Positions 1 through 14,858 of a stretch of 14,858 bases of DNA are shown piece after piece; within the stretch, counting starts at the first letter, position 1, and every line of letters starts with the position of its first letter. The position numbers and the translations under genes are program-made. Under the pieces are notes generated by a model. The model had not been told where the DNA came from. It saw only the letters and a list, made by a program, of their open reading frames with translations, and searched no databases. Source of the DNA: a bacterium. Its GTDB lineage: Bacteria > Chloroflexota > Dormibacteria > UBA8260 > Bog-877. The stretch is from contig JAKAWF010000064.1 of assembly GCA_021817025.1 (NCBI GenBank), forward strand, positions 1 through 14,858. Reading direction: 5' to 3'.

Positions 1-284
1 ACGCGCTGGTGAAGTGGGGCGGCTGGATGAAGCTGTTCCTGCTCTCCTCCATCTTCATGAACGTCTTCGTGCTCCCCGGCGGCCTGGGCAACGGCACCAG
101 CCTGGCCGGCGGCCTCCTCGGGATCCTGGCCCTGCTGGGCAAGCTGGCGATCTGTGGGCTGGCGATCGTGATCATCGACTCCTCCTTCGCCAAGCTGCGC
201 TTCTTCCGCATCGCGGAATACCTGGGGGGCGCCTTCCTGCTGGCCCTGATCGGGCTGGTCACCTCCTACGTGGTCGCCAAGTAG
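1..284 (+). CDS. HyfC/NuoH-like membrane subunit, 3' end only
   Basis: This is the last 93 codons of a gene that enters from the left; the reading frame begins at base 3. The protein is hydrophobic with about three membrane segments. Its tail (IIDSSFAKLRFFRIAEYLGG, then a last helix) is the usual end of the NuoH/HyfC family, in which an acidic residue and an AKLR-FRI stretch precede the final helix. In this family the subunit anchors the hydrophilic arm to the ion-pumping membrane arm. The TAG stop lies two bases before the next ATG, so it is the first visible gene of the hyf-like operon. HyfC is preferred over complex I NuoH because hyfE-type and hyfB-type genes follow. The N-terminal part, including the quinone-site loops, is outside the window. 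Confidence 0.85.
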   Translation, partial: ALVKWGGWMKLFLLSSIFMNVFVLPGGLGNGTSLAGGLLGILALLGKLAICGLAIVIIDSSFAKLRFFRIAEYLGGAFLLALIGLVTSYVVAK

Positions 285-286
285 AG

Positions 287-961
287 ATGCAGCACCTCTC
301 CCTGGCCTCCCCGGCCGGACTCTTCCTCAGTCTGGACGCGGTCCTGATCCTCCTGACCGCGTTCGCGTGCCTGGGATCCAAGCTCTTCGACCGCTATCTG
401 ACCTACTACGGACTGCAGTCGGTGCTGCTGGCGGCGGCCGCCGCCGTCGCCGCCTCGGTCACCGGAGACCCCGCCCTGTGGGTGCTCGCCGGGCTCACCT
501 TCTGTCTGAAGGGCATAGCCATCCCGGTGGCGGCGCGCCGGCTGCTGGTGCGGCGGCTGCAACTCAAGCGCGACGCCAGCGTCGCGGTGGGGCTGTCGAC
601 CTCCCTGATCCTGGGGGCCGGGCTGTGCGCCTTCGCCTATCTGGTGATCGGGCCCCAGAACCTCGCCCACGGCCTGATCTCCAGGTCGATCATCCCCCTC
701 TCCACCGCGGTCCTGCTGCTGGGGGCTCTGATGATGGTGGTGCGGCGCCACATGGTGGCTCAGCTGATCGGCTGGCTGATCATGGAGAACGGTGTCTTCC
801 TGGGCGCCATCACCCTCACCGCCAGCTTCCCGTTCATCGTCGAAGCGGGCATCTTCTTCGACCTGATCGCCGGCTTCCTGATCATGCTGGCAATGACCAC
901 GGGGATCGCGGAGCGGATCTCCGCAGCCTCCCTCGTGCGGCCCGGGCGGGAACCCTCGTGA
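287..961 (+). CDS. hyfE: Hydrogenase-4 component E-like membrane subunit
   Basis: The protein is 224 residues, close to the usual HyfE length of about 216. It has about seven hydrophobic segments and a basic patch ([13 protein letters not shown]) near residues 80-95. The C-terminal part, with [16 protein letters not shown] and then [18 protein letters not shown], is the conserved core of HyfE, which resembles a fusion of NuoK-like and other small membrane subunits. The conserved Glu of IMEN sits inside a membrane helix, as in NuoK. I chose the ATG two bases after the previous stop, because the longer open frame reaching back to base 14 overlaps the HyfC end and is not membrane-like. No strong ribosome site is seen, so translation is probably coupled to the upstream gene. 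The stop overlaps the next GTG start (GTGA). Confidence 0.88.
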
Positions 962-2436
962 TCGTCCTTCCGATCCTGGCCGCGGCGGCTCCCCTGCTCG
1001 GGAGCATGGCCGGGCTGGTCACGGCCAGAGCCAGGCTGGCCGGCCTCGCCACCATCGTGGGCGCGCTGCTCGGCCTCCTCCTGGCGGTTGCCACCGCCAT
1101 CGTGGTCATCCCCGGCCAGCCGCTCGCGAGCAGCGGCAGCTTCGTCTACGTCGACGGCCTGGGCGCCTTCTTCGCGATCACGGTTGCGATCGTGGTCTTC
1201 CTCGCCAGCCTGGGCTCCTTCTCCTACATCGCGACCGAGCAGCGTCGGGGGCTGCTCTCGTCTCGCCGAATCAGGGTTTACTTCGTGGTCTTCGGCCTCT
1301 TCGCCACCGCCATGATGGGGGCGGTCGAGACCGCCAACCTGGGGCTGCTGTTCATCCTGGTCGAGGCGGCCACGCTCGCCAGCGTGGTGATGGTGCCGAT
1401 CGAAGGCCGCACCGAGGGGCTGGAGGCGGGCTGGAAGTACGTGATCATCAGCAGTCTGGGGATCACCATCGCTCTGGCCGGCACCCTGTTCGTCTTCTAC
1501 GCCGCCACGGGACTGGCCGGCAGTCCCGACCAGCACCTCACCTGGGCCTACCTGGTGGCACATGCCCAGCAGCTGAGCCCGGTCGGCGTGCGGCTGGGAT
1601 TCCTGCTGGCGGTGGTCGGCTACGGGACCAAGGTGGGGCTGGCCCCCATGCACACCTGGCTGCCCGACGCCCACTCCGAGGCGCCCAGCCCCGCCAGCGC
1701 AATGCTCTCGGGCGCCCTCCTCAACGTGGGCATGTACGCCATCATCCGGTTCGTCGCCATCGCCAACGGCCGGCTGGGCCCCGCCTACGCCAGCCACGTC
1801 CTGCTGGTCTTCGGCTTCCTCTCGATCGCGGTGGGGGCGTTCTTCATGATCCACCGCCGCGACTTCAAGCGCCTCTTCGCCTACTCCTCGGTGGAGCACA
1901 TGGGCATCATCGCGGTGGGGCTCGGATTCGGGGGGGTGCTGGGCCTCTATGGGGCTCTCCTGCACACCCTCAACCACAGCATCGGCAAGGCGGTCCTCTT
2001 CCTCACCGGCGGCACCCTGGTGCTCGCCTACGGCACCAGGCGCGCGGATCGGATCGGCGGCGCTCTGACCAGCCTCCCCCTGACCGGGGGAGCTCTCCTG
2101 ATCGGCTCGCTGGCCATCGTGGGGTCACCTCCGTTCGGCCTGTTCATCAGCGAGTTCGTGATCGTGCGCGCCGGTCTGGCGGCCGCCTACCCGGCCCTGG
2201 TCGGCCTCTTCCTCCTGCTGCTGGTGATCGTCTTCATCGGTTTCATGCACACCACCAGCGGGATGGCGGTCGGCCAGGCGCAGGCCGCCGCGGTCTCGCC
2301 CTACCGGGGCCGGGCGGAGCGCTGGAGCGCGGCGGCGCCGCTGCTGCTGGGGCTGTGCGGACTGCTCCTGCTGGGACTTTGGATCCCGGGCTGGCTCAAC
2401 GCGTTGCTGCTGCACTCGGTGGCGCTGATCCGATGA
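958..2436 (+). CDS. hyfF: Hydrogenase-4 component F-like proton antiporter-type subunit
   Basis: The protein is 492 residues with about 14 membrane segments and belongs to the NuoL/M/N and Mrp antiporter family. Landmark residues expected for ion translocation are present: Glu136 in the fifth-helix motif LVEAATL, Lys225 in [20 protein letters not shown], and Lys344 in [11 protein letters not shown]. The SVEHMGI and [11 protein letters not shown] motifs are also typical of HyfF. It is predicted to carry one of the proton or cation channels of the membrane arm. I chose the GTG at 958 because it overlaps the hyfE stop as GTGA and opens directly into the first hydrophobic helix; the open frame upstream of it is an arginine-rich shadow of hyfE. 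The 3' end overlaps the next ATG (ATGA). The retained channel residues argue that the complex still pumps ions. Confidence 0.9.
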
Positions 2437-4019
2437 CCGCCAACGCCCCCGCCCTCTCCCTGGCCGAGGTGCTCCTGCGGCTCCCGGGCCAGGCGCGGCC
2501 GAGCCCTCAGGCCGGGGTCACCGCCTGGCGGGTCGAGCCCACCGACCTGGGCGCGGCCGCAGCCGCGCTGGCGGCCAGCTCCGCCCGCCTGGCCGACATG
2601 TTCGTGGCCCCGGTGGGAGCCAACCTGGATGCCGGTCCGCAACTGGAGCGCGTCCTGGTGCTGGCCTTCGACGACGAGGAGCGGTATCTCCTCCTGCACA
2701 GCGCGGTCGCGGCCGACCACCACCCCGGGGTGGCCACCGCGCTGCCGGGCGCCTATCTGGAGGAGTGCGAGATCTTTGAGCTCTGGGGGCTGCTCCCGGG
2801 CGGGGGAATGCCTCTGAACCGGGTGCTGCTCCCTCCCGACAGGGAGGCCGGTGCCCCCTTGCGAATGGCGGTCGGCGCCGTCCAGGCCCATCCCCTCCCC
2901 ACCGAGGTGCGCGCCCCTCACGTGGTCCAGGGGGAGGCGTTCGAGTTTCCGGTCGGCCCGGTGCGCGGGGTCGGCCAGGAGTCGCTCTACCTGGGCCTGG
3001 TGACGACCGGGGAGGAGCTCCTGGACGTCTACCTGGCGTGGTTTCACAAGCACCGTGGCATTGAGCAGCAGTTGGCCGGGTTGGATCCAGCCAAGGCGCT
3101 CTTCCTGGTCGAGCGTTGTGAGGGCCTCGGGGCGGTGGGCAACTCCCTGGCGTTCGCCAGGGCGGTGGAAACCGCCTCCGGCACCCGGGTGCCGGCAGCC
3201 GCCGAGCGCACCAGAGCGGTGGCGCTGGAGCTGGAGCGCATCTACAACCACGTGGCGACGACCGCCGGCCTGTGCCAGGCGACCGGACTCGGGGTGGGGC
3301 AGGCGCAGATGGAGATGCTGCTGGAGGAGTGGTTGCGCCTCAACGCGGCGGCCTTCGGGCACCGCTACCTCTTCAACGTGATCGCTGTCGGAGGGGTGCA
3401 GCGCGGCTGCGACCCGACCACCTTGGAGACGGAGCTGGGACCCCTGTGCAGCCGCTTCGCGGAGCGCGTCGGGGCCCTGCTGCGCACCAACTCCTTTGTG
3501 GACCGGCTGGAGGCGGCCGGGGTGGTGACTCCCGAGGCGGCCGCCCGACTGGGGCTGGTCGGGCCGGTGGCGCGAGCCTCCGGGGTGGGAACCGATCTTC
3601 GCCGCGACCATCCCAAGTCGGTGCGGGCCGCCGGCCTGAGCGTGCCCTCGCAGCACGACGGCGATGTCCTGGCGCGGCTGCGGGTGGCGATCGAGGAGAT
3701 CCGTGAGTCCGAGCGCCTGATCGAGCACTGGCTGAAGTCGGGGGAGCTGGTCGACTCGTCCCTGACCCGCGGCTCGGTGGTCGCTCCCAGGGGAGATGAG
3801 GAGGACGGCAGCGCGCTGGGGTGGTGCGAGTCCGCCCGTGGGGAGGCCCTGGCCTGGGTCAAGCTGAGAGCCGGCCGGGTGGAGGCGGCTCGCATCCGGC
3901 CCGCCTCGGTCCGCAACTGGCGTGCCTTCGACGACGCCCTGCGCTCCCGCAACGTCTTCACCGATGTCGCCATCATCGAGGCCAGCTTCGGGCTGACGGT
4001 GGCTGGGTTCGCCCGCTGA
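2433..4019 (+). CDS. HyfG/HycE-like large subunit lacking the [NiFe] ligands (Ehr type)
   Basis: The protein is 528 residues with two fused domains: a NuoC-like 30-kDa part (about 1-170, including [15 protein letters not shown]) and a NuoD/hydrogenase large-subunit part (about 175-528). In [NiFe] hydrogenases the first ligand motif reads ERxCGxC followed by His. Here the aligned stretch at 226-238 is [13 protein letters not shown], so the ligand positions are Glu230 and Gly233 and the His is Asn237; Cys229 is one residue out of register. The C-terminal DPCxxC is replaced by FGLTVAG (519-525). All four metal ligands are therefore absent, and no hydrogenase activity is expected. This fits the energy-converting-hydrogenase-related (Ehr) class, whose substrate is unknown. 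The ATG overlaps the hyfF stop (ATGA). The protein ends directly after the motif, so no maturation-type C-terminal extension is present. Confidence 0.9.
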
Positions 4020-4354
4020 TGGCGCTCTGGTTCCTGCGCGGGGTTCGCCGGGGGGTGGTCACCACCGCCTACCCGAAGCGACCCGACGCCTCCAGCTCCC
4101 AGCTGCCGACCCCGCCCACCTTCGACCCGGCCGCGCTCGATGCGCGGGTGGCCCAGCGGATGGTTTCTGTCTGTCCCAGTCGAGCCCTGGAGTTGGCGGG
4201 CGGAGCTCTGATCCTGGACGTCGGCTGCTGCACCGCCTGCCAGCGCTGTTTGGGGGTCGGCGGTGACCTGGGGCGAGCGAGCGGGGAGTTCCAGTGGGCG
4301 ACTCGCGATCCAGCCAGGCTGCGCCTGAAATTCCCGCTGGAGGGCCGGTCTTGA
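4019..4354 (+). CDS. HyfH/HycF-like ferredoxin subunit with one [4Fe-4S] cluster
   Basis: The protein is 111 residues, shorter than the usual 180 of HycF/HyfH. The N-terminus (LRGVRRGVVTTAYPKRPD) is the characteristic lead-in of these subunits. Only four usable cluster cysteines are visible: Cys52 in VCPSRAL, and Cys71, Cys74, Cys77 in CCTACQRC (Cys70 is an extra). In a standard two-cluster ferredoxin, cluster II is bound by the three cysteines of the second motif plus the CP cysteine of the first. That is exactly the set kept here, while all ligands of cluster I are gone. Its role would be an electron relay between a donor and the HyfI-like cluster. The start overlaps the previous stop (TGATG). 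Identification rests on the N-terminal motif, the cysteine pattern and position in the operon. Confidence 0.82.
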   Translation: MALWFLRGVRRGVVTTAYPKRPDASSSQLPTPPTFDPAALDARVAQRMVSVCPSRALELAGGALILDVGCCTACQRCLGVGGDLGRASGEFQWATRDPARLRLKFPLEGRS

Positions 4355-4923
4355 AGAAGGTCGCGGGGGGACCGCCGACGGCGAGGACGGTGGCCTCTCT
4401 GCCGATGGTGGCAGAGGGCTCTCCCGTCGTTCCCGAGAGGGAGCTCCGCCAGGTCGGCTCCGAGCTGCGCCGCCGGAGCTCACGCCTGCTCGGGCGCAGC
4501 CTGCACATCCGCACCGTCGACACCGGCTCCTGCGGCGCCTGCGAGTCGGAGATCAAGCTCCTGGCGTCCCCCCACTACGACCTCCATCGCCTCGGACTGT
4601 TCTTCACCCCGGCGCCGCGCCACGCCGACTGCCTGTTGGTGACCGGGCCCGGGACCCTCGCCATGGACCACGCCCTGCTGGCCACCTACGAGGCCATGCC
4701 CGATCCCAAGATCGTGGTCTCAGTGGGGGCCTGCCCGCTGGGGGGGGTCTTCGCGCCTGACCAGTACAGCCACGGAGGCATCAGGGACCTGCTGCCCATC
4801 GATGTCTTCATTCCCGGTTGCCCTCCCAGTCCCCTGGCCTTGCTGCAGGGCCTGCTGGTGGCGGTGGATCGGCTCGAGGAGAGGATGGGGCCCAAGCAGG
4901 GCCGGGCGGCCAGCCGGCCATGA
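4351..4923 (+). CDS. hyfI: HyfI/NuoB-like small subunit with proximal [4Fe-4S] cluster
   Basis: The protein is 190 residues and belongs to the NuoB / hydrogenase small-subunit family. All four ligands of the N2-type proximal cluster are present: Cys61 and Cys64 (GSCGACE), Cys128 (GACPLGG) and Cys157 (IPGCPPSP). PRHADCLLVTGP is the usual HyfI-type motif between them. It should bring electrons to the interface with the large subunit. I chose the TTG at 4351 because it overlaps the preceding stop as TTGA and has a GGAGGG six bases upstream. A GTG at 4294, also with a GGGGAG at good spacing, would add 19 residues. An ATG at 4405 would remove 18, and all conserved residues lie downstream of every candidate. 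The stop overlaps the next ATG (ATGA). Confidence 0.88.
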   Translation: MKKVAGGPPTARTVASLPMVAEGSPVVPERELRQVGSELRRRSSRLLGRSLHIRTVDTGSCGACESEIKLLASPHYDLHRLGLFFTPAPRHADCLLVTGPGTLAMDHALLATYEAMPDPKIVVSVGACPLGGVFAPDQYSHGGIRDLLPIDVFIPGCPPSPLALLQGLLVAVDRLEERMGPKQGRAASRP

Positions 4924-6935
4924 GTACCGTGATCTTGGGGCTGCTGCTCGCGGCCGCCGTCACCTGGCTGCTGGCGGGGGCGATCGCGGCCGCGGTGCAG
5001 CGCCGGGTCGGAGTTCTGGGCGCCGCCGGACTCTCCAGCCTGGGCGGCGCCATGGCGCTGGCGGCGGGGCTGGTGGCGGTGGTTGGCCGGACCCCCGCCC
5101 ACCTGAACCTGGGCCAGGGTCCGGCCGGGCAGACCTCCTTCGCCCTGACCCCCATGGCGGCGGTCTTCGTGGTCGCGCTGGGGCTGGTGGCAGCCGCCAT
5201 CGGCGCCTACCTGCCTCGGTACCATCGGCCAGGGCGCGGGACGTCGCTCTACCTCCTGGCCTACCACGGAGCGCTGGTGGCCAGCCTGGTGGTGCTCTGC
5301 GCCGGCTCGGTGACGGTCTTCTTGGTGGCGTGGGAGTCGATGACCTTCAGCAGCTACCTGCTGATCCTGCGCCACCAGCGGGACCTCAAGGTCGCCCGGG
5401 GCGCGTTCCTCTTCCTGGCCCTGGGGGAGGCGGGTTTCGCCATGATCGTGGCCGCCCTCGGAATCCTCGCGGTGCAGGCGGGCAGCCTCGACTTCGCGGT
5501 GATCCAGGCCCACGCCGGCCAGCTGGCGCCCGGCTGGCGGGATGCGGTCTTCCTGCTCGCTTTGCTCGGCTTCGGATTCAAGGCGGGCCTGGTGCCCCTC
5601 CACATCTGGCTGCCGGCCGCCCACCCGGTCGCGCCCGCCGACGGCTCCGGCTTCCTCTCCGGGATCGTGACCAAGCTCGGCGTCTACGGCTTTGCCCTGG
5701 TCGCCTTCCAGCTGCTGCCGCGGGGGCCTGTCTGGTGGGGGCTGCTGGCGATGGCGCTGGGAGCCGTCTCGGCCCTGCTGGGGGTGTTGTACGCGCTCAT
5801 GGAGCGAGACTGGAAGCGCTTCCTCGCCTACTCCACCATCGAGAACATCGGCATCGTGATGATGGCCCTGGGGGCTTCGCTGACCTTCTTCGAGTCCTCC
5901 CAGCCGGCGGTGGCGGCACTGCTCCTGATCGCCGGGCTCTACCACGTGCTCAACCACGCCACCTACAAGACCATGCTCTTCCTCCAGACCGGGGTGGTCG
6001 AACACGCCACCGGCCTGCGCGATCTCGACCGCCTGGGGGGGCTGGCTCACCGGATGCCGATCACTTCGGGGCTGACCCTGGTCGGAACCCTGGGGATAGC
6101 GGCGCTGCCGCCGCTCAACGGCTTCGTCAGCGAGTGGCTGGTGTTCGAGGGACTCTTCCAGGGTTTCCGCATCCACAGCCACGTGGTCGGAGTGCTGCTG
6201 GTCCTGGCCGCCGCCACCATGGCGCTGACTGGAGGCCTGGCCGTCAACGCCTTCGCCCGTGCCTTCGGCATGCCATTTCTGGGGATGCCGCGCAGTGAGG
6301 GGGCGGCTCGGGCCAGCGAGGGGGGCCAGCCGATGGCGGGGGCGGCCCTGCTGGCGACTGCCTGCGTGTTCCTGGCGCTGGGGGCCCCCCTGGTGCTGAC
6401 GGGGCTGGACCGGGTGGTGGCGGCGACCACCGGGACCAACATCCTCGCCCGCCTGATCGTCCCTGGGCTGACGGTGATTCCGGCCCACACCAACTTCAGC
6501 GCGTTCTCACCGACCTACCTGGCCGTGTGCCTGGTGGCGATGCTGCTGGTGCCCGTCCTGATCGTGAGGAGCCGCATCCGGACAGCCCCGGACCGGAGGG
6601 TCCCGGTCTGGGCCGGTGGCATCATGCGCTTCCGGCCCCGCATGCAGTACACCGCCACCACCCACGCCAACCCGGTGCGGGTCACCTTCGACGGCCTCTA
6701 CCGGCCCCATGTCGAGGTGACCAGAGCTTCGGATGATCCGGCCGGGCGGTCGGGGCCGGTGCACTACCGGTTCCAGGTGACGCCCCTCTTCGAGAGTTAC
6801 CTCTACCACCCCATCGTCCGGCTGGTGGAGGTGTTGGCCCGGCGGGCGCGGCCGATCCAGTCCGGCGACGTCAACCTCTATCTCCTGTACGTTTTCGCGG
6901 CGGTCCTCATCGTCTACGCGGTCGCGGTCAGGTAG
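4920..6935 (+). CDS. hyfB: Hydrogenase-4 component B-like antiporter-type subunit
   Basis: The protein is 671 residues, matching the 672 of the E. coli HyfB family. It has about 14-16 membrane segments. Ion-channel landmarks are present: Glu139 (VAWESMTFSSY), Lys221 (GFGFKAGLVPLHIWLPAAHP) and Lys350 (HVLNHATYKTMLF). The motif ALPPLNGFVSEW lies near 400. The C-terminal extension after about residue 540 contains a soluble loop (PVWAGGIMRF to PLFESYLYHP) and a final helix, as in HyfB/HycC. It would be the second antiporter-like module beside the HyfF-like one, so two candidate ion channels are encoded. It is the last gene of the operon; in E. coli hyf the corresponding gene lies near the beginning. 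The ATG overlaps the hyfI stop. Confidence 0.9.
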   Translation: MSTVILGLLLAAAVTWLLAGAIAAAVQRRVGVLGAAGLSSLGGAMALAAGLVAVVGRTPAHLNLGQGPAGQTSFALTPMAAVFVVALGLVAAAIGAYLPRYHRPGRGTSLYLLAYHGALVASLVVLCAGSVTVFLVAWESMTFSSYLLILRHQRDLKVARGAFLFLALGEAGFAMIVAALGILAVQAGSLDFAVIQAHAGQLAPGWRDAVFLLALLGFGFKAGLVPLHIWLPAAHPVAPADGSGFLSGIVTKLGVYGFALVAFQLLPRGPVWWGLLAMALGAVSALLGVLYALMERDWKRFLAYSTIENIGIVMMALGASLTFFESSQPAVAALLLIAGLYHVLNHATYKTMLFLQTGVVEHATGLRDLDRLGGLAHRMPITSGLTLVGTLGIAALPPLNGFVSEWLVFEGLFQGFRIHSHVVGVLLVLAAATMALTGGLAVNAFARAFGMPFLGMPRSEGAARASEGGQPMAGAALLATACVFLALGAPLVLTGLDRVVAATTGTNILARLIVPGLTVIPAHTNFSAFSPTYLAVCLVAMLLVPVLIVRSRIRTAPDRRVPVWAGGIMRFRPRMQYTATTHANPVRVTFDGLYRPHVEVTRASDDPAGRSGPVHYRFQVTPLFESYLYHPIVRLVEVLARRARPIQSGDVNLYLLYVFAAVLIVYAVAVR

Positions 6936-6974: not shown

Positions 6975-7421
6975 AACCTCGGGATGCGCTCCTGGCTCCG
7001 GGCGGCGCAGGTGCGGCGCCTGGGGAGGTTCCGGCGAGATCTGAAGGAGTCGGTGCTGAGCCCGCACCCGCCGCGGACCCAAGGAGACGGCAGGGCGGGG
7101 AGTTCCTCAGGGCAGGCGCGACGGCGGTCACCGGGGCTGGACACGGAAGCGTCAGGGGCTCCCCAGGGGCCACTCCAGCCGGAGTGGACGGACAGCGCCG
7201 GCAGATCACTTTCGACTGCTCGGACCGCGCTACCGGTGAGATCCGGCGCGGCCAGATCCCGGTCCCCCGGGCCGGGCTCCGGCCCGCCGGTCGGCAGGGA
7301 TGAATGGCCGCGGCTCGTCGCCATCACACCACCGGCCAAGATCCTGACGCCAGGGGGCGCAACTCCACTGAGATTTCCGCTGGGGCACCCACGGCCATGT
7401 CTCAAGAGCCAGAATTGCGGC
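6975..7421. other. Non-coding stretch upstream of the MarR-type gene
   Basis: This 447-base interval holds no gene I can support. The frame of the MarR-type gene stays open through it, but the translation is Pro/Arg/Ser/Gly-rich and looks like random high-GC sequence. Two small perfect hairpins are visible: CCACTCC/GGAGTGG with loop AGCC (7170-7187), and CGGGCCGG/CCGGCCCG with loop GCT (7268-7286). Neither is followed by a T-tract. No clear promoter was identified. Confidence 0.4.
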
Positions 7422-7904
7422 ATGGATGAAGGGCTCTCGCCGGTTGCGGCCACTCTCAGCCTGCTCCAGGCGCACCGACTTCTGGAGGTCTCCCTGGACC
7501 GTCGGCTGATGGCGGCCACCGGGCTCTCCCTGTCGGCGGCGGAGGTGCTGGTGCGCCTGGGGGCGGTATCCGGGGGCCGCATGGGGATGCTCGAGCTGGC
7601 CCACGCCACCTGCTTCAGCAGGAGCGGGGTGAGCCGTATCGTCGACCGCCTGGAGCGCCGCCGCCTGGCCCTCCGCCGGATCTCAACGGAGGACCGGCGC
7701 CTGACCTGGGTGGAGTTGACCGAAGCCGGGCGCGACCTGATGTGGGAGTTGCTGGCCGCCCTGCAGGTCGCGGTCGAAGAGGACTTCGCCAGCTTTCTCA
7801 GCGACGACGACATCACCTCGCTGGCCGACAAGCTGGACAAGTTGGTGGCCGGTATCCGGGGCGCGGTCCAATCAGTCCTGGAACAGGACGACCAGGCCGG
7901 GTGA
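7422..7904 (+). CDS. MarR-family transcriptional regulator
   Basis: The protein is 160 residues with the MarR architecture: an N-terminal dimerisation helix, a winged helix-turn-helix (about 38-100) and a long C-terminal helix pair for dimerisation. The recognition region LAHATCFSRSGVSRIVDRLE (59-78) and the wing STEDRRLTWVELTEAG (88-103) contain the conserved DRR and LTEAG signatures. Cys64 in the recognition region could be redox-sensitive, but that is only a suggestion. The ATG at 7422 gives a normal family length; an open extension back to 6984 is low-complexity and was rejected. No clear ribosome site precedes the ATG. The ligand and targets are unknown. Neighbouring candidates are the DsrE-like gene downstream, whose upstream region carries a palindrome, and its own promoter. 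Confidence 0.87.
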   Translation: MDEGLSPVAATLSLLQAHRLLEVSLDRRLMAATGLSLSAAEVLVRLGAVSGGRMGMLELAHATCFSRSGVSRIVDRLERRRLALRRISTEDRRLTWVELTEAGRDLMWELLAALQVAVEEDFASFLSDDDITSLADKLDKLVAGIRGAVQSVLEQDDQAG

Positions 7905-8562: not shown

Positions 8563-8919
8563 GTGACCGAACCGACCCAATCGACCTTGGTGGTGCTAAC
8601 CACGGGCAAGGAGGCTCTGGTTCGCGCCAACGCGGTGCTCCAGATGACGCTCATGCTCCGCAAGACCGGCCAGATGCCAGTCGAACTCCTCACCCTTGGC
8701 CCGGGGGTGGAGGTTCTCCGCTCCAACCAGAAGAATTCACCGCAGTTCCAGCAACAGCTCGACGCTCTCCGTGAGGCCGGTGTGCGCCTCACGGTGTGTG
8801 AGGTCTCGCTCGAGAATCTTGGGCTCACCCAGGACCAGATGTTTCAGGCGGACACCGTGAAGGGTGGCGTCGAAGTGGCGACGCGCCTGCGCGAGGGCTG
8901 GCAAGTCCTCACCTTCTGA
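8563..8919 (+). CDS. DsrE/DsrF-like family small protein
   Basis: The protein is 118 residues with the alternating hydrophobic-strand/helix pattern of the DsrE-like fold: TLVVLTTG, then a helix with many Met residues, VELLTLGPGVEVL, GVRLTVCEVSLENLGL and a C-terminal strand WQVLTF. Its only cysteine is Cys79, in the conserved VCEVSLENLG position where DsrE/TusD-type proteins often carry the persulfide-accepting Cys. It may take part in sulfur relay or thiol redox, but many members of this family have no assigned function, and no dsr, tus or sulfur-oxidation genes are nearby. The GTG start is set by the strong upstream AAGGAGG. The gene is convergent with the YhbP-like gene, and the two stop codons are only nine bases apart. 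Confidence 0.8.
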   Translation: MTEPTQSTLVVLTTGKEALVRANAVLQMTLMLRKTGQMPVELLTLGPGVEVLRSNQKNSPQFQQQLDALREAGVRLTVCEVSLENLGLTQDQMFQADTVKGGVEVATRLREGWQVLTF

Positions 8920-8928: not shown

Positions 8929-9420
8929 CTAGCGCTGAGCGGATGCTGGATCGGTCCCCGCATCCTGCCACCGGTCGCTGGACCGGTTGGCGGCCGGCGG
9001 GACACTGAGTTCTTCGATGATCCCAGCGGTCCGGTCGACCAAGCGCGCCCAGCCGACATCGATCACGAAGTACGCCTGCACTCCGCTCGTATCCTGCGCG
9101 TCCGGAAATCGAGATCGGTACGCAGTCCGTATGGCCCTGGAGTCGAGCGCTCGGCACCTTCCCCGGAGCTGGACCCCGCGGACCTGACCGCGCGGGATGT
9201 CAGGATGGGCGAAGACCGTCAGTGCCACGGCTGAGCCCTGGTGCCAGAGCCTTGCATGGGTGCTCGCTGGGTCCGTGAGAACGGCCAAGCGGAGCCCCGG
9301 GCCGGGCACCAGTGCGTAGTACAAATTGGCGGCCCATGGCATGCCATCCGGCGTGACCGTCGCCACCCCTGCGGTGTGCGCTTCGGCCAGCAGCTCGCGG
9401 ACGCGGTCAAGGACGGCCAC
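8929..9420 (-). CDS. YhbP-like pyridoxamine-phosphate-oxidase-fold (FMN split barrel) protein
   Basis: The protein is 163 residues and resembles the YhbP/UPF0306 branch of the PNPOx-like split barrels. The N-terminal helix (VRELLAEAHTAGVATVTPDG) leads into the first barrel strands and PWAANLYYALVPGPGLRLAVLT. A STHARLWHQGSAVALTVF segment follows, then RGVQLRGRCRAL and RTAYRSRFPDAQ, a combination I associate with YhbP. It probably binds FMN or a related cofactor and acts as a small flavin oxidoreductase or cofactor carrier; the reaction is unknown. The GTG at 9420 is the only in-frame start between the upstream in-frame stop and the conserved region. No Shine-Dalgarno sequence precedes it, but TATCAT lies six bases upstream, suggesting leaderless expression. 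Confidence 0.8.
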   Translation of the reverse strand: MAVLDRVRELLAEAHTAGVATVTPDGMPWAANLYYALVPGPGLRLAVLTDPASTHARLWHQGSAVALTVFAHPDIPRGQVRGVQLRGRCRALDSRAIRTAYRSRFPDAQDTSGVQAYFVIDVGWARLVDRTAGIIEELSVPPAANRSSDRWQDAGTDPASAQR

Positions 9421-9504: not shown

Positions 9505-10392
9505 CTACCGCACCGTGTGACGGTAGTCAGTCACCCGGATGGCTCTCGGCAGGTTCTCATTGGCCAAGTTCCAAATCCCAGGGGCTCCAGCACCCAACAC
9601 GACCAGCTGCTGGGCCCGGTCGCAGCCGCAGCGCCGCGCCTGTGCATGGGGACAGGGCCGAATTCGGCGGCTGTCGTCATCGTGGCCACGTAGCTGGAGG
9701 AGTCGGGATCCCGGATCGGATGGCCCCTGTCATCCCAGGCGGTCTGAGAGAACAGGCAGCCGAGCTTTGCCCCTCGGGTGTGCGCCCGGCCTCAGGCGAC
9801 TTGCCCGGGCGCCCTTCCGTGTCGGCGGGCACCCCGGCGCCTTCGATGGCGACGTACGGCTCGGGGTCGGCTCGGAGCTGACCAGTGGGACCACCTTGGC
9901 CGAGAGCACCGCCTCGGCCTGAGCTTCGGCGACCACTCGGATCTTGGCCCCGTCGGCTTCGGAGCTGCGCTCAACCCGCGCGCTGGTCAGATGGAGTCCG
10001 ACCAGTTCGGCCAGGTCCCGACTCCCCGTCTTTGGGCAAGCGCCTATGGCCGCAGTCCGCGCAGGCGTAGTAGGCGCGGCCGAGGCGAACCGGGCCCAGG
10101 CCGGTGTCGACCTTCTTCTCCCGGTGGGCGGAGAACCCGGCGAGGTGGCCCCCACCGCAGTCCACCCGGGCACCGCGATGCCCGGAGTCGAAATCCAGCA
10201 GCCCTTCCCGCAGGCTGCCCCCGATCTTGACCATGGCGGTGCGAATCGCCAGCTCGACTGGGGCCAAACCTTTCCCAAGGGATCACTTAGGCTGGCGGCA
10301 AGCTGGGTGAGGCGCTCCAGCTCGGCGGAGAGGTCCCCCTGGAGCTGCGTGGAGAGCCCCTTTCTTGGACTCTGCCTCGGGTGGAATCCGGG
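9505..10392 (-). pseudogene. Decayed ISKra4-type transposase
   Basis: Reading the minus strand and allowing frame changes recovers a transposase of the ISKra4 type. Order of recovered segments: KGLSTQLQGDLSAELERL near 10359-10306; AIRTAMVKIGGSLREGLLDF and GHRGARVDCGGGHLAGF, then LGPVRLGRAYYACADCGHRR down to about 10035; LAELVGLHLTSARVERSSEA; YVAIEGAGVP; AKLGCLFSQTAWDDRGHPIR; then VLGAGAPGIWNLANENLPRA, ending at a TAG at 9505-9507. At least five frame changes are needed (near 10280, 10020, 9860, 9770 and 9630). About 30 residues seem deleted near 10020, and the C-terminal third is missing. The usual GDGA and VDGTGVP acidic residues read GAGA and IEGAGVP. It cannot be functional. Family assignment is from remembered motifs. 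Confidence 0.8.
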
Positions 10393-10395
10393 CCG

Positions 10396-10746
10396 GTGCC
10401 GAGACTAGCCGAACTTCACAGATTCGCTCGTTGACCTCCACAACCTGGTCGACCATCGCCTGGAACTGCTTGGAGTGGGCCACCTCCTGCTGCGCCGTGG
10501 TCAGAGCGGGTCCATCCGGGATCGCTCTGGTGGCGGTCTTGCCGCTCACGGATTTGGTCAAGAGGTTGATGGGGCCGTGCCCAGGGTGGTCCGGGTCGGC
10601 GCAGGCGCAGTAGCTCTTCCCGCAGCGCCGATAGGTGCTGACCGGGCCGCCCCGCCGGAAGTCACCTCCACCGGCCAGCTGCCCCTGCGACCGGCCCGCT
10701 GCGCCTTGAGTTCCTCCACATCTCGGTCTTCGGCACTGGCCAAAGT
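10396..10746 (-). pseudogene. DUF6788-like accessory ORF of the decayed insertion sequence
   Basis: On the minus strand the N-terminal piece ASAEDRDVEELKAQRAGRR (about 10743-10680) is in a different frame from the rest. After one frame change near 10680 it continues as VSTYRRCGKSYCACADPDHP, GHGPINLLTKSVSGKTATRA and VDQVVEVNERICEVRLV. The YRRCGK-xx-C-x-C and HGP...SVxGKTxTR pattern matches the DUF6788 family, small proteins I know mainly as neighbours of transposases. It lies immediately upstream (5') of the transposase remnant in the same orientation, as expected for the accessory gene of the element. The frameshift and read-through into the transposase region mark it as broken. Assignment is from memory of the family motif. 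Confidence 0.7.
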
Positions 10747-10943
10747 GAGCTGTCCTCACACAGCAAGCGAGTACGCTTGCGGCAGAACCCATCTTTGGTC
10801 TCGTCGTCAAGCTCGGCCTCCACTCTTGTCCCACAGTAGGCCCGAAGCCGGTGCCGACAGCGACGGCCCGGCTCGTCTATAGTCACTTGGTTCAGGGGTC
10901 TTGCGCAGAGACCCGCACAGCGGGTACACGAGGGGGCGGAGCC
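10747..10943. other. Upstream region of the liv-like operon
   Basis: This interval of about 197 bases lies between the IS remnant and the binding-protein start. An open minus-strand frame (RLRAYCGTRVEAELDDETKD, about 10851-10790) may be another decayed coding scrap, but I do not recognise it. The promoter candidate listed separately lies in its right half. Confidence 0.35.
10854..10883 (+). promoter_or_regulatory. Candidate promoter of the liv-like operon
   Basis: TATAGT (10878-10883) is a good -10 match, and CCGACA (10854-10859) matches four of six bases of the -35 consensus with an 18-base spacer. Transcription would begin near 10890, about 54 bases before the GTG of the binding-protein gene. 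Confidence 0.4.
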
Positions 10944-12185
10944 GTGAAAAGATATCTCATCGCAACAGCCGGACTGGGGTTGCTGGGGCTGATGGTGTCC
11001 GCCTGCGGGGCTGCCACCTCGGCCACCTCGAAGGCCCCGGCGGCCATAACCGTTGGCACGCTGTATTCAGGATCGGGTTCCTTTGCGACCTCTTCGCTAC
11101 CCGAGCTGGCGGGCCTGAAGTTCTGGATCAGCCAGGAGAACAGCAAGGGCGGGGTCTACGTGGGAGCCTACAAGAAGCGGATCCCGGTCAAGCTGGTGAC
11201 CTACAACGACCAGAGTTCGGCCACCACCGCGGCCACCCTGTACACCCAGCTGATCACCCAGAACAAGGTCAACATCATGGTGGCCGACTTCGGGTCGGTG
11301 CTGACGGCGCCGGCGGTCACGATTGCCGAGGAGCATCACCAGTTGCTGTTCGATCAAACCGGGACCGGCACCACCTTCTTCACCCCTGGCAACAAGTACA
11401 TCGTCCTGACGGCGCTGCCGAGCTCCGGGATCTGGCCGGACCCCTTGGTCAAGTTCCTGTTGGCGGAGAAGATCTCCAAGGTCGCGATCCTCTACGACTC
11501 CAACGACTTCGACGCCAGCCAGGCCGCGACCGTGAACAAGGGCCTGATCGCGGGCGGCGTCACTCCCGTCTACTATCAGGCGGTACCGACCGCGACCACC
11601 AGCTACGGCACCTTGATCCAGAGCATCAAGGCCACCAACCCCCAGGCCGTCCTGGAGTACGGGTACCCACCCAACGACATTTCCTTCCTGCAGGCGCTGC
11701 AGTCCGGGGGGGTGAAGTTCCCGATGGTGTTCACCGCCTTCCCGGGCCAGTTGCACCAGCTGCTGGAGAGCAATGTGGGCCAGGCTGGGCTCGCCTACAC
11801 CTTCTCCTATGGGTTCCCCGTCCAGCTGGCCTACAACACCGTCAACGAAGGGTTGGGGACCAGCGCGTTCGAGAGCGCGTTCGCTCCCTCGGATCCCTCG
11901 AGCATCAACTTCCTGGACGTGGCCGGCTACCAGACGGGGCTGGTCATCCAGGCCGCCCTTGACCACGCCACCAGCCTGAGCCAGCTGGCTCTGCGCAACG
12001 CGGTGGCCTCGGTCTCGGGCCAGCTCAAGACCATCGACGGCAGCTTCGCGATCAACTCCACAGGCGCCCAGACCGGTGAGTTGCTGCCGGTGTCCCAGCT
12101 GTTCCCCTCGGGCAGCACCACCAAGATTCAGATGGTCTACCCGCCCGCTGCGGCCACCCACAGCGCCGTCTACCCGGCACCGTGA
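10944..12185 (+). CDS. livK: Branched-chain amino acid type ABC transporter, substrate-binding lipoprotein
   Basis: The protein is 413 residues. It begins with a lipoprotein signal peptide: a basic start (MKRY), a hydrophobic core and the lipobox VSAC with Cys21 as the acylated residue. The remainder is a type I periplasmic-binding fold of the LivJ/LivK class, with ITVGTLYSGSGSFA as the first strand and binding loop, VKLVTYNDQSS, and ISKVAILYDSNDFDAS at the start of the second lobe. It should catch substrate outside the membrane and hand it to the LivH/LivM permease. Family members bind leucine-type amino acids, amides, urea or aromatic acids, and the substrate here cannot be told. I chose the GTG at 10944 because it gives the complete signal peptide and has AGGGGGCGGAG just upstream. 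It is the first gene of the operon. Confidence 0.9.
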   Translation: MKRYLIATAGLGLLGLMVSACGAATSATSKAPAAITVGTLYSGSGSFATSSLPELAGLKFWISQENSKGGVYVGAYKKRIPVKLVTYNDQSSATTAATLYTQLITQNKVNIMVADFGSVLTAPAVTIAEEHHQLLFDQTGTGTTFFTPGNKYIVLTALPSSGIWPDPLVKFLLAEKISKVAILYDSNDFDASQAATVNKGLIAGGVTPVYYQAVPTATTSYGTLIQSIKATNPQAVLEYGYPPNDISFLQALQSGGVKFPMVFTAFPGQLHQLLESNVGQAGLAYTFSYGFPVQLAYNTVNEGLGTSAFESAFAPSDPSSINFLDVAGYQTGLVIQAALDHATSLSQLALRNAVASVSGQLKTIDGSFAINSTGAQTGELLPVSQLFPSGSTTKIQMVYPPAAATHSAVYPAP

Positions 12186-12191
12186 CGCGCC

Positions 12192-12225
12192 CGCCGGGGC
12201 CCCGGGTCCGCCCGGGGCCCCGGTG
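12192..12225 (+). terminator. Very strong intercistronic hairpin between livK and livH
   Basis: The arms CCGGGGCCCCGGG (12194-12206) and CCCGGGGCCCCGG (12211-12223) are perfectly complementary around the four-base loop TCCG. One G-U and one C-G pair extend the stem outward to 15 pairs. It begins six bases after the livK stop. No T-tract follows, so it is best read as a partial terminator or 3'-end stabiliser that raises livK mRNA over the downstream genes. Confidence 0.65.
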
Positions 12226-12264
12226 CCGTCTGGCCGGTGGGCAGGAATAGGAGACTTTGCAGCG

Positions 12265-13143
12265 ATGCTTCTCGAGTACGCGATCGTGGCCGGGGTGCTG
12301 TTCGGGATCTTCTACGCGTACCTCGCGATCGGGCTCAACCTCATCTTCGGAGTGCTTCGGGTCGTCAACCTGGCCCACGGCGACCTGGTCATGCTGGGCT
12401 CCTACCTGGCGTTCGAGCTCTACTACGCCTGGCACTGGAGCCCGCTGCTGGCGATAGTCGTGGCGATCGTCCCGGCCATCCTGGTGGGGGGAGCGGTCTA
12501 CCTGGGCGTGGCGCCGCGGCTGGCCCGGGCCTCGGACCCCGAGATGATGTCCCTGGTCCTCTTCTTCGGGGTGTCGCAGATCATCGAGGCGCTCGCCACC
12601 TTTGGCTTCGGCAGCAACGAACGCTCGATCAACTCCACCGCCTTTGGCAATCACCCCATCGGCTTCCTGGGCCAGGCCTACCCGGTCACCTGGGCGGTCG
12701 CGGCGGCGGTATCGGTGCCGGTGTTGCTGATCCTCTTCGCCTACCTCGGCCGCACCAAGCTGGGCCGGGCCACCAAGGCGGTCATGGCCAGCCCCGACGA
12801 AGCGGCGGCGGTCGGGATCAACGTGCGCACCATCTCGGCGCTGACCTTTGGCATCGGGGTGACGCTGGCGGTGGGCGCCGGTTCGCTGGCGATCTTCATG
12901 CTGGGCGGGGTGACTCCCACCGAGGGGGTCTCGATCACGGTGGTGAGCTTCGCCGTGATCGTGATCGGTGGCCTCGGCAACACCCTGGGGACGATGGTGG
13001 GAGGTCTCGTATTCGGGCTCGCCTCCCAGCTGACCCTGACTTTCCAGCCCAATTGGGCCGCCCTGGTGCCGTACGCCCTGCTGCTCGCGGTGGTGCTGAT
13101 CCGTCCCAGCGGGATCCTGTCGAGGACCAGCCGCCTTGCCTAG
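12265..13143 (+). CDS. livH: Branched-chain amino acid type ABC transporter permease LivH
   Basis: The protein is 292 residues with about eight membrane segments. The opening AYLAIGLNLIFGVLRVVNLAHGDLVMLGSY is the standard LivH signature (GLNLIFGVxRxxNxAHGxxxMxG). The cytoplasmic loop GRTKLGRATKAVMASPDEAA (from residue 162) followed by AVGINVR is the coupling region that contacts the ATPases, and GGLGNTLGTMVGG lies near the C-terminus. It forms half of the translocation channel with LivM. The ATG at 12265 was chosen because it opens directly into the first helix. An AGGAG sits 11 bases upstream, a rather long spacing. The upstream open frame runs through livK and the hairpin and is not coding. 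Confidence 0.92.
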   Translation: MLLEYAIVAGVLFGIFYAYLAIGLNLIFGVLRVVNLAHGDLVMLGSYLAFELYYAWHWSPLLAIVVAIVPAILVGGAVYLGVAPRLARASDPEMMSLVLFFGVSQIIEALATFGFGSNERSINSTAFGNHPIGFLGQAYPVTWAVAAAVSVPVLLILFAYLGRTKLGRATKAVMASPDEAAAVGINVRTISALTFGIGVTLAVGAGSLAIFMLGGVTPTEGVSITVVSFAVIVIGGLGNTLGTMVGGLVFGLASQLTLTFQPNWAALVPYALLLAVVLIRPSGILSRTSRLA

Positions 13144-14173
13144 GCTCAGCTGGCTGATCAAACCGGGGGGAGGGGCGGGGCCGGTGGTTGGAGGGGTCTC
13201 CAGGCCCGCAGCGGCGGCCGCCATCGTGGTGCCGGCCCTTGGTTTCGTGGTCGCCAACGTCTTCTACCCCAACCAGCAGGAGCTGGTGATGATGATGGTG
13301 TACCTGGTGATGGCCCAGGGCATCAATGTGATCTATGGCTTCACGGGCTACCTCCCCTTCGGGTACGCCGGCTTCTTCGGAGCCGGCGCCTACGGGCTTT
13401 CGCTGTCGGTCATCTACTGGCACGTGCCCGCCGGCGTGGGACTGGTGTTCGCGATCCTGGCGGCGGTGGCGGTGGCGGCGCTGCTGTCGCCCCTGCTGCG
13501 GCTGAACGGGGTCTACTTCGCAATCGCGAGCCTGGCCGCGGCCGAGGCGCTGTACGTGGTGATCTCCAATCCCTCGCTGACCGCCATCACCAAGGGCCCC
13601 TACGGGATCAACCTGATCGCGGTCTACAACTCCAACGCCAGCTTCATCGCGGCGGTGGCGCTGGTGATGGCGGCGATGGCGGAGGCGGTGTACCTGCGCA
13701 GCTCTCGCTTCGGCCTGGCCCTGCGAGCCATTCGCAATGATGCCGTCAGCGCCGAGTACGCGGGCATCAGGGTGGTGCGGCAGAGGGCCGCGGCCTGGCT
13801 GATCGCGGCCGCCCTCGCCGGGGCGGCCGGGGGCGTCTTCGCCTGGTACACCTCGACCTTCTACCCCAGCGCGGTCTTCGACACCTCGATCAGCATCTTC
13901 GCGATCGTGTTCGCCCTCTTCGGCGGCGTGGGAACGATCTGGGGGCCGGCCCTGGGGGCGGTGATCCTCTTCGGGATCTACAACGCCGTCGGCATCTCAG
14001 AGCCCCAGTACTTCCAGCTCATCTACGGGGTCCTGATCGTGCTGCTGGTGCTCTTCCTGCCCGGCGGTCTGGCCGGGCTGGCGCGCCACCTGGCCTCCGG
14101 GTTCAACCGCGTCCGCGGCAGGCCCGGTCGGGGCCCGGGCCGCGCTCTGGGGCCCGGGGCCGGCGATGTCTGA
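13136..14173 (+). CDS. livM: Branched-chain amino acid type ABC transporter permease LivM
   Basis: The protein is 345 residues with about ten membrane segments. Family landmarks are INVIYGFTGYLPFGYAGFFG near the N-terminus, the coupling loop RFGLALRAIRNDAVSAEYAGI (about 190-210), and the late motif FALFGGVGTIWGPALGAVIL. It pairs with LivH to form the channel. The TTG at 13136 overlaps the livH stop by eight bases and has GAGGA nine bases upstream. A later GTG near 13182 would drop about 15 residues, so the exact start is uncertain. The C-terminal tail (RVRGRPGRGPGRALGPGAGD) is basic, Gly-rich and probably unstructured in the cytoplasm. Confidence 0.9.
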   Translation: MPRLSWLIKPGGGAGPVVGGVSRPAAAAAIVVPALGFVVANVFYPNQQELVMMMVYLVMAQGINVIYGFTGYLPFGYAGFFGAGAYGLSLSVIYWHVPAGVGLVFAILAAVAVAALLSPLLRLNGVYFAIASLAAAEALYVVISNPSLTAITKGPYGINLIAVYNSNASFIAAVALVMAAMAEAVYLRSSRFGLALRAIRNDAVSAEYAGIRVVRQRAAAWLIAAALAGAAGGVFAWYTSTFYPSAVFDTSISIFAIVFALFGGVGTIWGPALGAVILFGIYNAVGISEPQYFQLIYGVLIVLLVLFLPGGLAGLARHLASGFNRVRGRPGRGPGRALGPGAGDV

Positions 14174-14858
14174 TCCCATCCTGGTGATCTCCGATCTGGC
14201 CAAGTCATTTGGAGGCTTCGTCGCCCTCGACGGGGTCAGCCTGGAGCTGCAGGCCGGGGAGGTGGTGGGCCTGGTGGGGCCGAACGGCTCCGGCAAGACC
14301 ACCTTGATCAACGTGGTCTCGGGTCTGTACGCGCCCTCCCGGGGCACGGTGGTGCTGGGCGGCCGTCCGCTCCACCGAGGGCCTCCCCATCGGGTGGTCC
14401 GGAGTGGCATGAACCGGACTTTCCAAATCCCCAAGCCGCTGGGCACCCTCACCGTGAGCGAGAACCTGCGGGTGGCCGCCGGCTGTGGGACCGGGCGCCG
14501 GGCTCTGGAGGGAGATCCCCTCGAGCTGGTGGGCCTGGGGGGTCTCGAACGACGGTTCGCCAACAGCCTCAACGCCTCTCAACAGAAGCGGCTGGATCTC
14601 GCCCGGGCGCTGGTCACCTCACCGCGGGTGCTGCTGGTGGATGAATTGGGCGCCGGCCTCTCGCCGGCTGAGTTGGACGACGCCGCGGGGGTTCTGCGCC
14701 GGCTGGCGTCCGCCGGGATCGCGCTGCTGGTGGTTGAGCATCTGATGGGTTTTCTGGCCAAGGTCACCGGCCGGGTGATGGTCCTCAACGCGGGCCGGCA
14801 GATCTTCCAGGGAAGCCTGGAGGAGGCCGTGCAGGACCATCAGGTGGTGGAGGTGTTC
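14166..14858 (+). CDS. livG: Branched-chain amino acid type ABC transporter ATPase LivG, 3' end beyond window
   Basis: The visible 231 codons cover nearly the whole ATPase. The ATG overlaps the livM stop by eight bases. Walker A is GPNGSGKTT (38-46), the Q-loop Gln87 is in TFQIPKPLGTLTVSENL, Walker B ends in Asp159-Glu160, and the H-loop is His192 in VVEHLM. Two motifs differ from the ABC norm. The signature reads LNASQQKRLDLARAL (135 onward) instead of LSGGQ or the LivG-type LxxGxQRxLEIARAL. The segment after Walker B reads DELGAGL where DEPxAGL is usual. Both are substitutions seen in part of the LivG-like branch, to my recollection, so the protein is probably active. It would energise import through LivH/LivM; a livF-type gene is expected next. 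Confidence 0.9.
   Translation, partial: MSDPILVISDLAKSFGGFVALDGVSLELQAGEVVGLVGPNGSGKTTLINVVSGLYAPSRGTVVLGGRPLHRGPPHRVVRSGMNRTFQIPKPLGTLTVSENLRVAAGCGTGRRALEGDPLELVGLGGLERRFANSLNASQQKRLDLARALVTSPRVLLVDELGAGLSPAELDDAAGVLRRLASAGIALLVVEHLMGFLAKVTGRVMVLNAGRQIFQGSLEEAVQDHQVVEVF

Follow-up and report, generated by a model that had tools for sequence, protein, structure and literature searches.

A stretch of 14,858 nucleotides (nt) from a Chloroflexota bacterium of the class Dormibacteria (contig JAKAWF010000064.1, hereafter the window) opens inside a hydrogenase-4-like operon with the gene order hyfC (cut), hyfE, hyfF, large subunit, ferredoxin, hyfI and hyfB, followed by a MarR-type gene (Table 1). 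We found that this operon probably encodes an energy-converting-hydrogenase-related (Ehr) complex, a relative of complex I without hydrogenase chemistry, within a fluoride-response regulon. The fluoride link is seen directly in relatives and would extend to the window's own copy by analogy.

The large subunit was recognised by Pfam as Complex1_49kDa (6.9e-24) and weakly as NiFeSe_Hases (2e-06), and among proteins of solved structure HycE is its best sequence match (8.7e-38). We aligned window-type large subunits (type A) with E. coli HycE, HyfG and NuoCD as references, using 161 rows (159 distinct) composed of the window, 120 listed matches of 1286 and 40 genome loci, with two loci excluded for truncated genes. 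In the window, the registers of all four [NiFe] cysteines hold other residues, which confirms the original prediction that all four had been replaced and finds the motifs where it had put them. The same holds for 159 of the 161 type-A rows, and just two rows have a Cys at any ligand register, one each. The register of HycE C241 is occupied by E230 in the window (E in 120 rows, D in 41), that of C244 by G233 (S 101, G 52, C 2), that of H248 by N237 (N 111, D 22), that of C531 by T522 (160/161) and that of C534 by G525 (all 160 rows with a letter there). Nothing corresponding to the 32-residue C-terminal extension of HycE and HyfG, presumably the substrate of the maturation protease, was found beyond R528 in any of the 161 rows (one row ends earlier), and the maturation gene HypD was found in 19 of 40 type-A host genomes, which are metagenome-assembled genomes (MAGs) of unstated completeness. 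In the tree, type A groups with the sister types B and B2 in a single clade separate from HycE/HyfG and Nuo (support 100/99), and a member on a Mycobacterium branderi plasmid is 34-36% identical. Because the ligands are lost from a hydrogenase-4-type operon whose antiporter-like subunits keep the key Glu, Lys and His residues, the predicted assignment to the Ehr type stands on sequence grounds, with a large subunit of the group 4 hydrogenase/complex I superfamily devoid of the Ni-Fe cysteines.

Compared with E. coli formate hydrogenlyase (FHL; hydrogenases 3 and 4), the window's complex shares the kinds of subunits and their folds, and differs in lacking the Ni-Fe ligands and the C-terminal tail, in having one ferredoxin cluster rather than two, and in having no formate dehydrogenase recognised nearby. 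The cavity left by the metal is a mosaic that resembles complex I at the metal-ligand loop and hydrogenases at the proton-delivery loop. E. coli complex I carries NuoCD E272, G275 and N279 at the three registers of the former L1 loop, and E230 and N237 are therefore not inventions of the type-A family; the suggestion that these two replacements mark a new active site is thus not supported, and the neighbouring Cys229, proposed for the same role, fares no better, with Cys in 27 of the 161 rows and Ala or Thr in 110. On the hydrogenase-like side, E183 is the counterpart of the proton glutamate HycE E193 and is present in 161/161 rows, and the canopy residues R469 (HycE R478) and H273 (HycE H284) are kept in 161 and 160 rows, respectively (residue roles, including that of HycE E193, from parts of PMC9474812, PMC11228991 and PMC7684303). 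The register of the canopy residue HycE D529 holds Trp in 154 rows and Gly in 7, among them the window (G520). The quinone-binding His of complex I (NuoCD H224) is replaced by Q182 (W in 81 rows, Q in 56) and the quinone Tyr (NuoCD Y273) by G231 (Gly in 161/161). Of the earlier idea of a redox-driven ion pump with a new or quinone-like site, the pump remains plausible, and the quinone-like site is weakened by these two replacements.

The retained clusters bear on the same idea. Alignment to HyfH, HycF and NuoI shows that Cys 1-3 of motif 1 and Cys 4 of motif 2 are missing from the ferredoxin-like subunit; the remainder makes up one complete set, which we take to be N6b in complex I terms, the lost set being N6a. 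Of 48 rows, 46 or 47 retain these four Cys; one row is masked DNA and six come from second operons. In HyfI, the four N2-type Cys have the hydrogenase spacing CxxC, not the tandem CC of complex I, and are nearly invariant within type A. Retention of one ferredoxin cluster and of the four N2-type Cys makes a redox-driven pump plausible for the window's complex. It could instead be a complex I-like quinone reductase, in which N2 reduces a quinone in the emptied cavity and the fluoride link reflects back-up respiration when complex I fails. The window's complex does share with NuoBCD the E/D, G/S and N at the former ligand registers and the antiporter residues; however, the quinone His and Tyr are absent, the N2 spacing is that of hydrogenases, the operon contains no NADH-module gene, and the canopy Asp, apparently strictly conserved according to the part of PMC9474812 that treats it, is Trp or Gly here, which leaves this reading unlikely. 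Far less probable still is that the complex reduces sulfane sulfur at N2, in the manner of P. furiosus MBS. MBS has also lost Ni-Fe cysteines (two of four there, four of four here) and the quinone residues, and a DsrE-type gene lies in the window at 8563-8919; yet MBS lacks the E21 glutamate and carries a shortened motif with three Cys on N2 (PMC7684303, in part), whereas here E183 is invariant and N2 has four Cys with hydrogenase spacing, and no DsrE-type protein was recognised among recurrent neighbour clusters.

By alignment, the key antiporter residues are kept in both HyfF and HyfB. Among 28 full-length HyfC relatives, three of the eight E-channel positions named for FHL (E138, E189 and E206) are acidic in 26-28, and E139, E205 and E216 are present in all 28, E205 and E216 being further Glu. 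That the operon is a decayed or relic formate hydrogenlyase without function, as the loss of all metal ligands and the source annotations that still name a hydrogenase might suggest, is hardly credible given the open frames, the conserved gene order, the many invariant residues around the lost site and the conserved leader described below.

Around the operon in the named plasmid relatives lie genes for enolase, universal stress protein (Usp), inorganic diphosphatase, CrcB, MutS and MFS proteins, a set reminiscent of the fluoride regulon. All 42 type-A loci (618 kb) were scanned with Rfam at the gathering score. The fluoride riboswitch (crcB motif, RF01734) was found in 16 of the 42 loci, at 22 sites, an approximately 70-fold enrichment over the ~73 over-cutoff sites in ~149 Mb of 40 host genomes (hand count). 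In L024, L030, L031, L033, L035 and L037 the order is riboswitch, Usp gene and hyfC onward on one strand (with one extra small open reading frame (ORF) in L031 and L035), the riboswitch lying 672-1038 nt before hyfC. A covariance model, R1, was then built from 31 gathering-level sites, none directly before a type-A hyfC and six of them these farther leaders. Testable loci were the 31 in which the hyfC start and 200 nt before it are present; 11 further loci fall outside, including L003, the nearest to the window by path. R1 matched 17-65 nt upstream of hyfC on the same strand in 29 of the 31, with 28 matches convincing; that of L042 is weak and its core absent. The convincing leaders score 21.6-38.5 bits (E 2e-5 to 0.08 over 633 kb), which makes chance negligible in 31 windows of 150 nt. 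A pattern check of 29 elements (the 28 and that of L007) found GCGATG in all and the strict 3' core in 27. Three of the window's four nearest kin in the tree have leaders (L001, 21.6; L002, 22.0; L004, 25.5 bits), second operons in the L001 and L002 genomes have leaders of 35 bits, and the genome search scored a fluoride element of 27.7 bits upstream of the operon on its contig in G004, on the same strand. As a positive check, a gathering-level riboswitch lies directly before a crcB pair in G040. Across 39 control sources, comprising among others E. coli hyc, hyf and nuo and 30 host loci taken by PF01058 (mostly nuoB), there was no match (best 15.1 bits). Unlike the type-A relatives, the plasmid FHL loci of Pantoea and Azospirillum argentinense (RVCGIC and DPCYSC confirmed) have no leader (best 16.9 bits), as is the case for E. 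coli hyc; the operon start is present for these three loci and absent for E. coli hyf.

The neighbourhood is in keeping with such a regulon: MutS genes accompany 19 of the 42 type-A loci, Usp genes 11 and enolase genes 6, and fluoride riboswitches over the cut-off occur in 28 of 40 host genomes. The Usp, enolase, MutS, pyrophosphatase and MFS neighbours of relatives recall the ppaC-uspA-eno-gpmA-crcB operon of E. cloacae (PMC5533749, in part), with the difference that the central operon here is a complex I-like pump and that CrcB/Fluc was found in just 10 of 40 hosts (G001-G040) versus 10 of 14 controls, which may reflect MAG incompleteness. The idea that missing Fluc proves fluoride export by Ehr was not accepted, given this possible incompleteness and the CLC-family genes in 33 of the 40 hosts. 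The MutS proteins are domain V proteins of ~500 amino acids (aa), mostly paired (e.g. L016:1524-4549 + and L024:13534-17150 -), and several pairs immediately follow a fluoride riboswitch (L013, L019, L030 and L031). A further exporter may be encoded in L023, where an MFS gene follows a riboswitch (L023:2348-2406, before 2554).

The Ehr complex is most likely an ion pump that upholds pH and membrane potential under hydrogen fluoride (HF) stress, fluoride export being described in part of PMC11139923 as dependent on both. HF would enter the cell, and fluoride would bind the leader and turn the operon on. Electrons from a reduced soluble donor would enter at the single [4Fe-4S] cluster of the ferredoxin-like subunit and travel via the N2-type cluster to a small acceptor occupying the vacated metal site; E183 would give a proton, and loop movement would drive the two antiporter-like subunits, so that the expelled charge restores the pH and membrane potential needed for fluoride export. 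The leaders in relatives suggest that Ehr enzymes help cells survive fluoride rather than handle hydrogen.

Sister complexes of type B bear on how general such a redox drive could be. The N2 Cys are absent in 120 of the 120 matches listed (of 3389 from a type-B query), where they are replaced by Asp, Glu/Asp, Asp/Glu and Ser (Ala in two matches at the second site and in one at the fourth). HyfI/NuoB-like subunits with Asp/Glu/Asp/Ser occur at L009:18084-18551 -, L011:9362-10282 -, L012:1525-2364 +, L018:709-1134 + and L034:14970-15341 -, and in L011, L012 and L034 the N2-less subunit is fused to a one-cluster ferredoxin. By tally, the N2-less subunit is confirmed in 21 of 40 type-A host genomes. 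Type B keeps the fold and four of the five antiporter positions checked, and leaders above 20 bits precede 7 of 12 testable operons, two of the seven being R1 training sites. An obligate pairing of types A and B was rejected: in the order of G012, 13 of 118 genomes carry type B and 3 carry type A (survey by similarity, type B E <= 1.3e-44, type A E <= 2.6e-140, with N2 residues unchecked in the other ten B genomes); all three type-A genomes of that order are seeds, and all three also have type B.

Nine plasmid Ehr loci were taken from matched records (223 and 247). A fluoride leader precedes the operon or gene in four of the nine, all with an EASF/DASL C-terminus and all R1 training sites, and the five with an NKSF C-terminus have none. 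The M. branderi plasmid member has a fluoride leader, and its N2 Cys are absent. The NKSF loci form a second plasmid group (L100-L104, from Cupriavidus, Rhodococcus, Allomeiothermus, Methylovirgula and Azospirillum) in which hyfB stands before hyfC; in the Rhodococcus member both hyfI and hyfB do.

The N2 cluster is thus dispensable in type-B sisters under like control, which leaves room for another reading: the complex would be a ligand-gated or otherwise non-redox ion transporter whose cavity is acted on by fluoride or HF, possibly together with a metal ion at carboxylates, so that the antiporter-like subunits move, with the clusters structural or sensory. Type B, the M. branderi plasmid member and the low count of CrcB/Fluc in hosts favour it; on the other side, N2 and one ferredoxin cluster are retained in the window's complex and nearly invariant in type A, and absent CrcB may again be MAG incompleteness, with CLC-family genes common. 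We give this alternative a low probability. A broader proposal is equally tentative, namely that the fluoride-controlled Ehr clade is a new ion machine that shed the catalytic metal first and then, in type B, N2, and that operates with no electrons passing to N2; export of protons (or fluoride) through the antiporter-like subunits would be gated or driven by fluoride, HF or a fluoride-metal complex at carboxylate-rich sites, many hosts showing no Fluc.

Several observations weigh against a fluoride-controlled redox pump as we propose it for the window. No riboswitch was found by Rfam or R1 within the window, which starts inside hyfC, so that its own leader would lie upstream; with cmscan at E <= 5, neither the window nor any of L001-L004 gave a fluoride element. 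The type-A elements close to hyfC all score below the Rfam gathering score, and these leaders are better regarded as variant elements and candidate fluoride binders. R1 found no match before the type-A hyfC of L017 and L025, and no leader above 20 bits was found in 5 of the 12 testable type-B operons. On an Alicyclobacillus plasmid the riboswitch stands directly before the large-subunit gene (L098:8507-10209), with no antiporter or other Ehr genes recognised in the 19-kb stretch. As to mechanism, the existence of sisters without N2 under the same control argues against a redox drive as the general rule, the canopy Asp is lost, the HyfC relatives do not conserve five of the eight FHL E-channel positions (Y102, R108, E130, E199 and E201), and no donor or acceptor gene was found beside the operon among neighbour clusters in at least 3 of the 42 loci, with eleven proteins Pfam-scanned. 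Formate dehydrogenase, considered as a neighbouring donor, was likewise not recognised among these clusters. The Alicyclobacillus plasmid also encodes CrcB, at 5762-6217.

To our knowledge, Ehr complexes have been listed since about 2005 without a function. As far as their published descriptions allow comparison, they share with the window's complex a group 4-like large subunit without CxxC, antiporter-like subunits and no assigned function, and the parts consulted do not mention fluoride control or a single-cluster ferredoxin, both seen here (PMC6349859, PMC10284858, PMC4378227, PMC7304191 and PMC10432482). 'Formate hydrogen lyase' is named among genes of the fluoride riboswitch in parts of PMC2864571 and PMC11139923. 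Judged by its residues, the fluoride-linked 'formate hydrogenlyase' of the lineages examined is no hydrogenase, and it and Ehr appear to be the same thing there, a link that is new here; we found no paper linking Ehr with fluoride or describing N2-less complexes, a weak absence from a partial search. Ehr thereby gains a physiological setting, in which the fluoride-linked 'hydrogenase' of these lineages cannot bind Ni-Fe. Importantly, natural relatives of complex I without quinone ligands, and in type B also without N2, provide material for studying how redox chemistry couples to pumping.

Table 1 Features of the Ehr operon in the window (residue numbers are those of each protein).
Feature	Position (nt)	Strand	Basis
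HyfC/NuoH-like membrane anchor, C-terminal 93 residues, cut by window start	3..284	+	64-86% identity to hyfC of the same operon in relatives
HyfE-like membrane subunit	287..961	+	NCBIfam hydrogenase 4 membrane subunit 4.3e-16, below its cut-off
HyfF-like antiporter-like subunit; E135, K224, H339, E398 kept	958..2436	+	Pfam Proton_antipo_M 8.9e-44; alignment with NuoL/M/N and HyfF
Large subunit, 528 aa, 30 kDa + 49 kDa fusion, without [NiFe] ligands	2433..4019	+	Pfam, alignments
E183, beta1-beta2 loop glutamate, register of HycE E193	2979..2981	+	161/161 type-A rows
Former L1 ligand loop: E230 and G233 at Cys registers, N237 at His register	3108..3146	+	Alignment
C-terminal loop: T522 and G525 at Cys registers, G520 at canopy Asp register	3978..4007	+	Alignment
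Ferredoxin-like subunit (HyfH/NuoI type), one cluster: C52, C71, C74, C77; presumed N6b set kept, N6a lost	4019..4354	+	Alignment
HyfI/NuoB-like subunit, four N2-type Cys at nt 4531, 4540, 4732, 4819	4351..4923	+	Pfam Oxidored_q6 2.6e-22
HyfB-like antiporter-like subunit; E139, K221, K252, H346, E405 kept	4920..6935	+	NCBIfam hydrogenase 4 subunit B 5.2e-172, below its cut-off
MarR-type regulator ORF, start uncertain	6984..7904	+	Relative also downstream of hyfB in L001 and L002

In the 30-kDa domain of the large subunit, C112 (nt 2766-2768) is Cys in 159 of the 161 type-A rows and Arg in HycE. Downstream of the operon, the DsrE-type gene (+ strand) adjoins a gene for a PNPOx-type protein at 8932-9420 (- strand), and a DUF6788 ORF at 10286-10834 (- strand) is possibly a mobile-element remnant. 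The remainder of the window, 10851-14858 on the + strand, holds genes of an ABC transporter of the branched-chain amino acid type (binding protein, two permeases and an ATPase cut at the window end).
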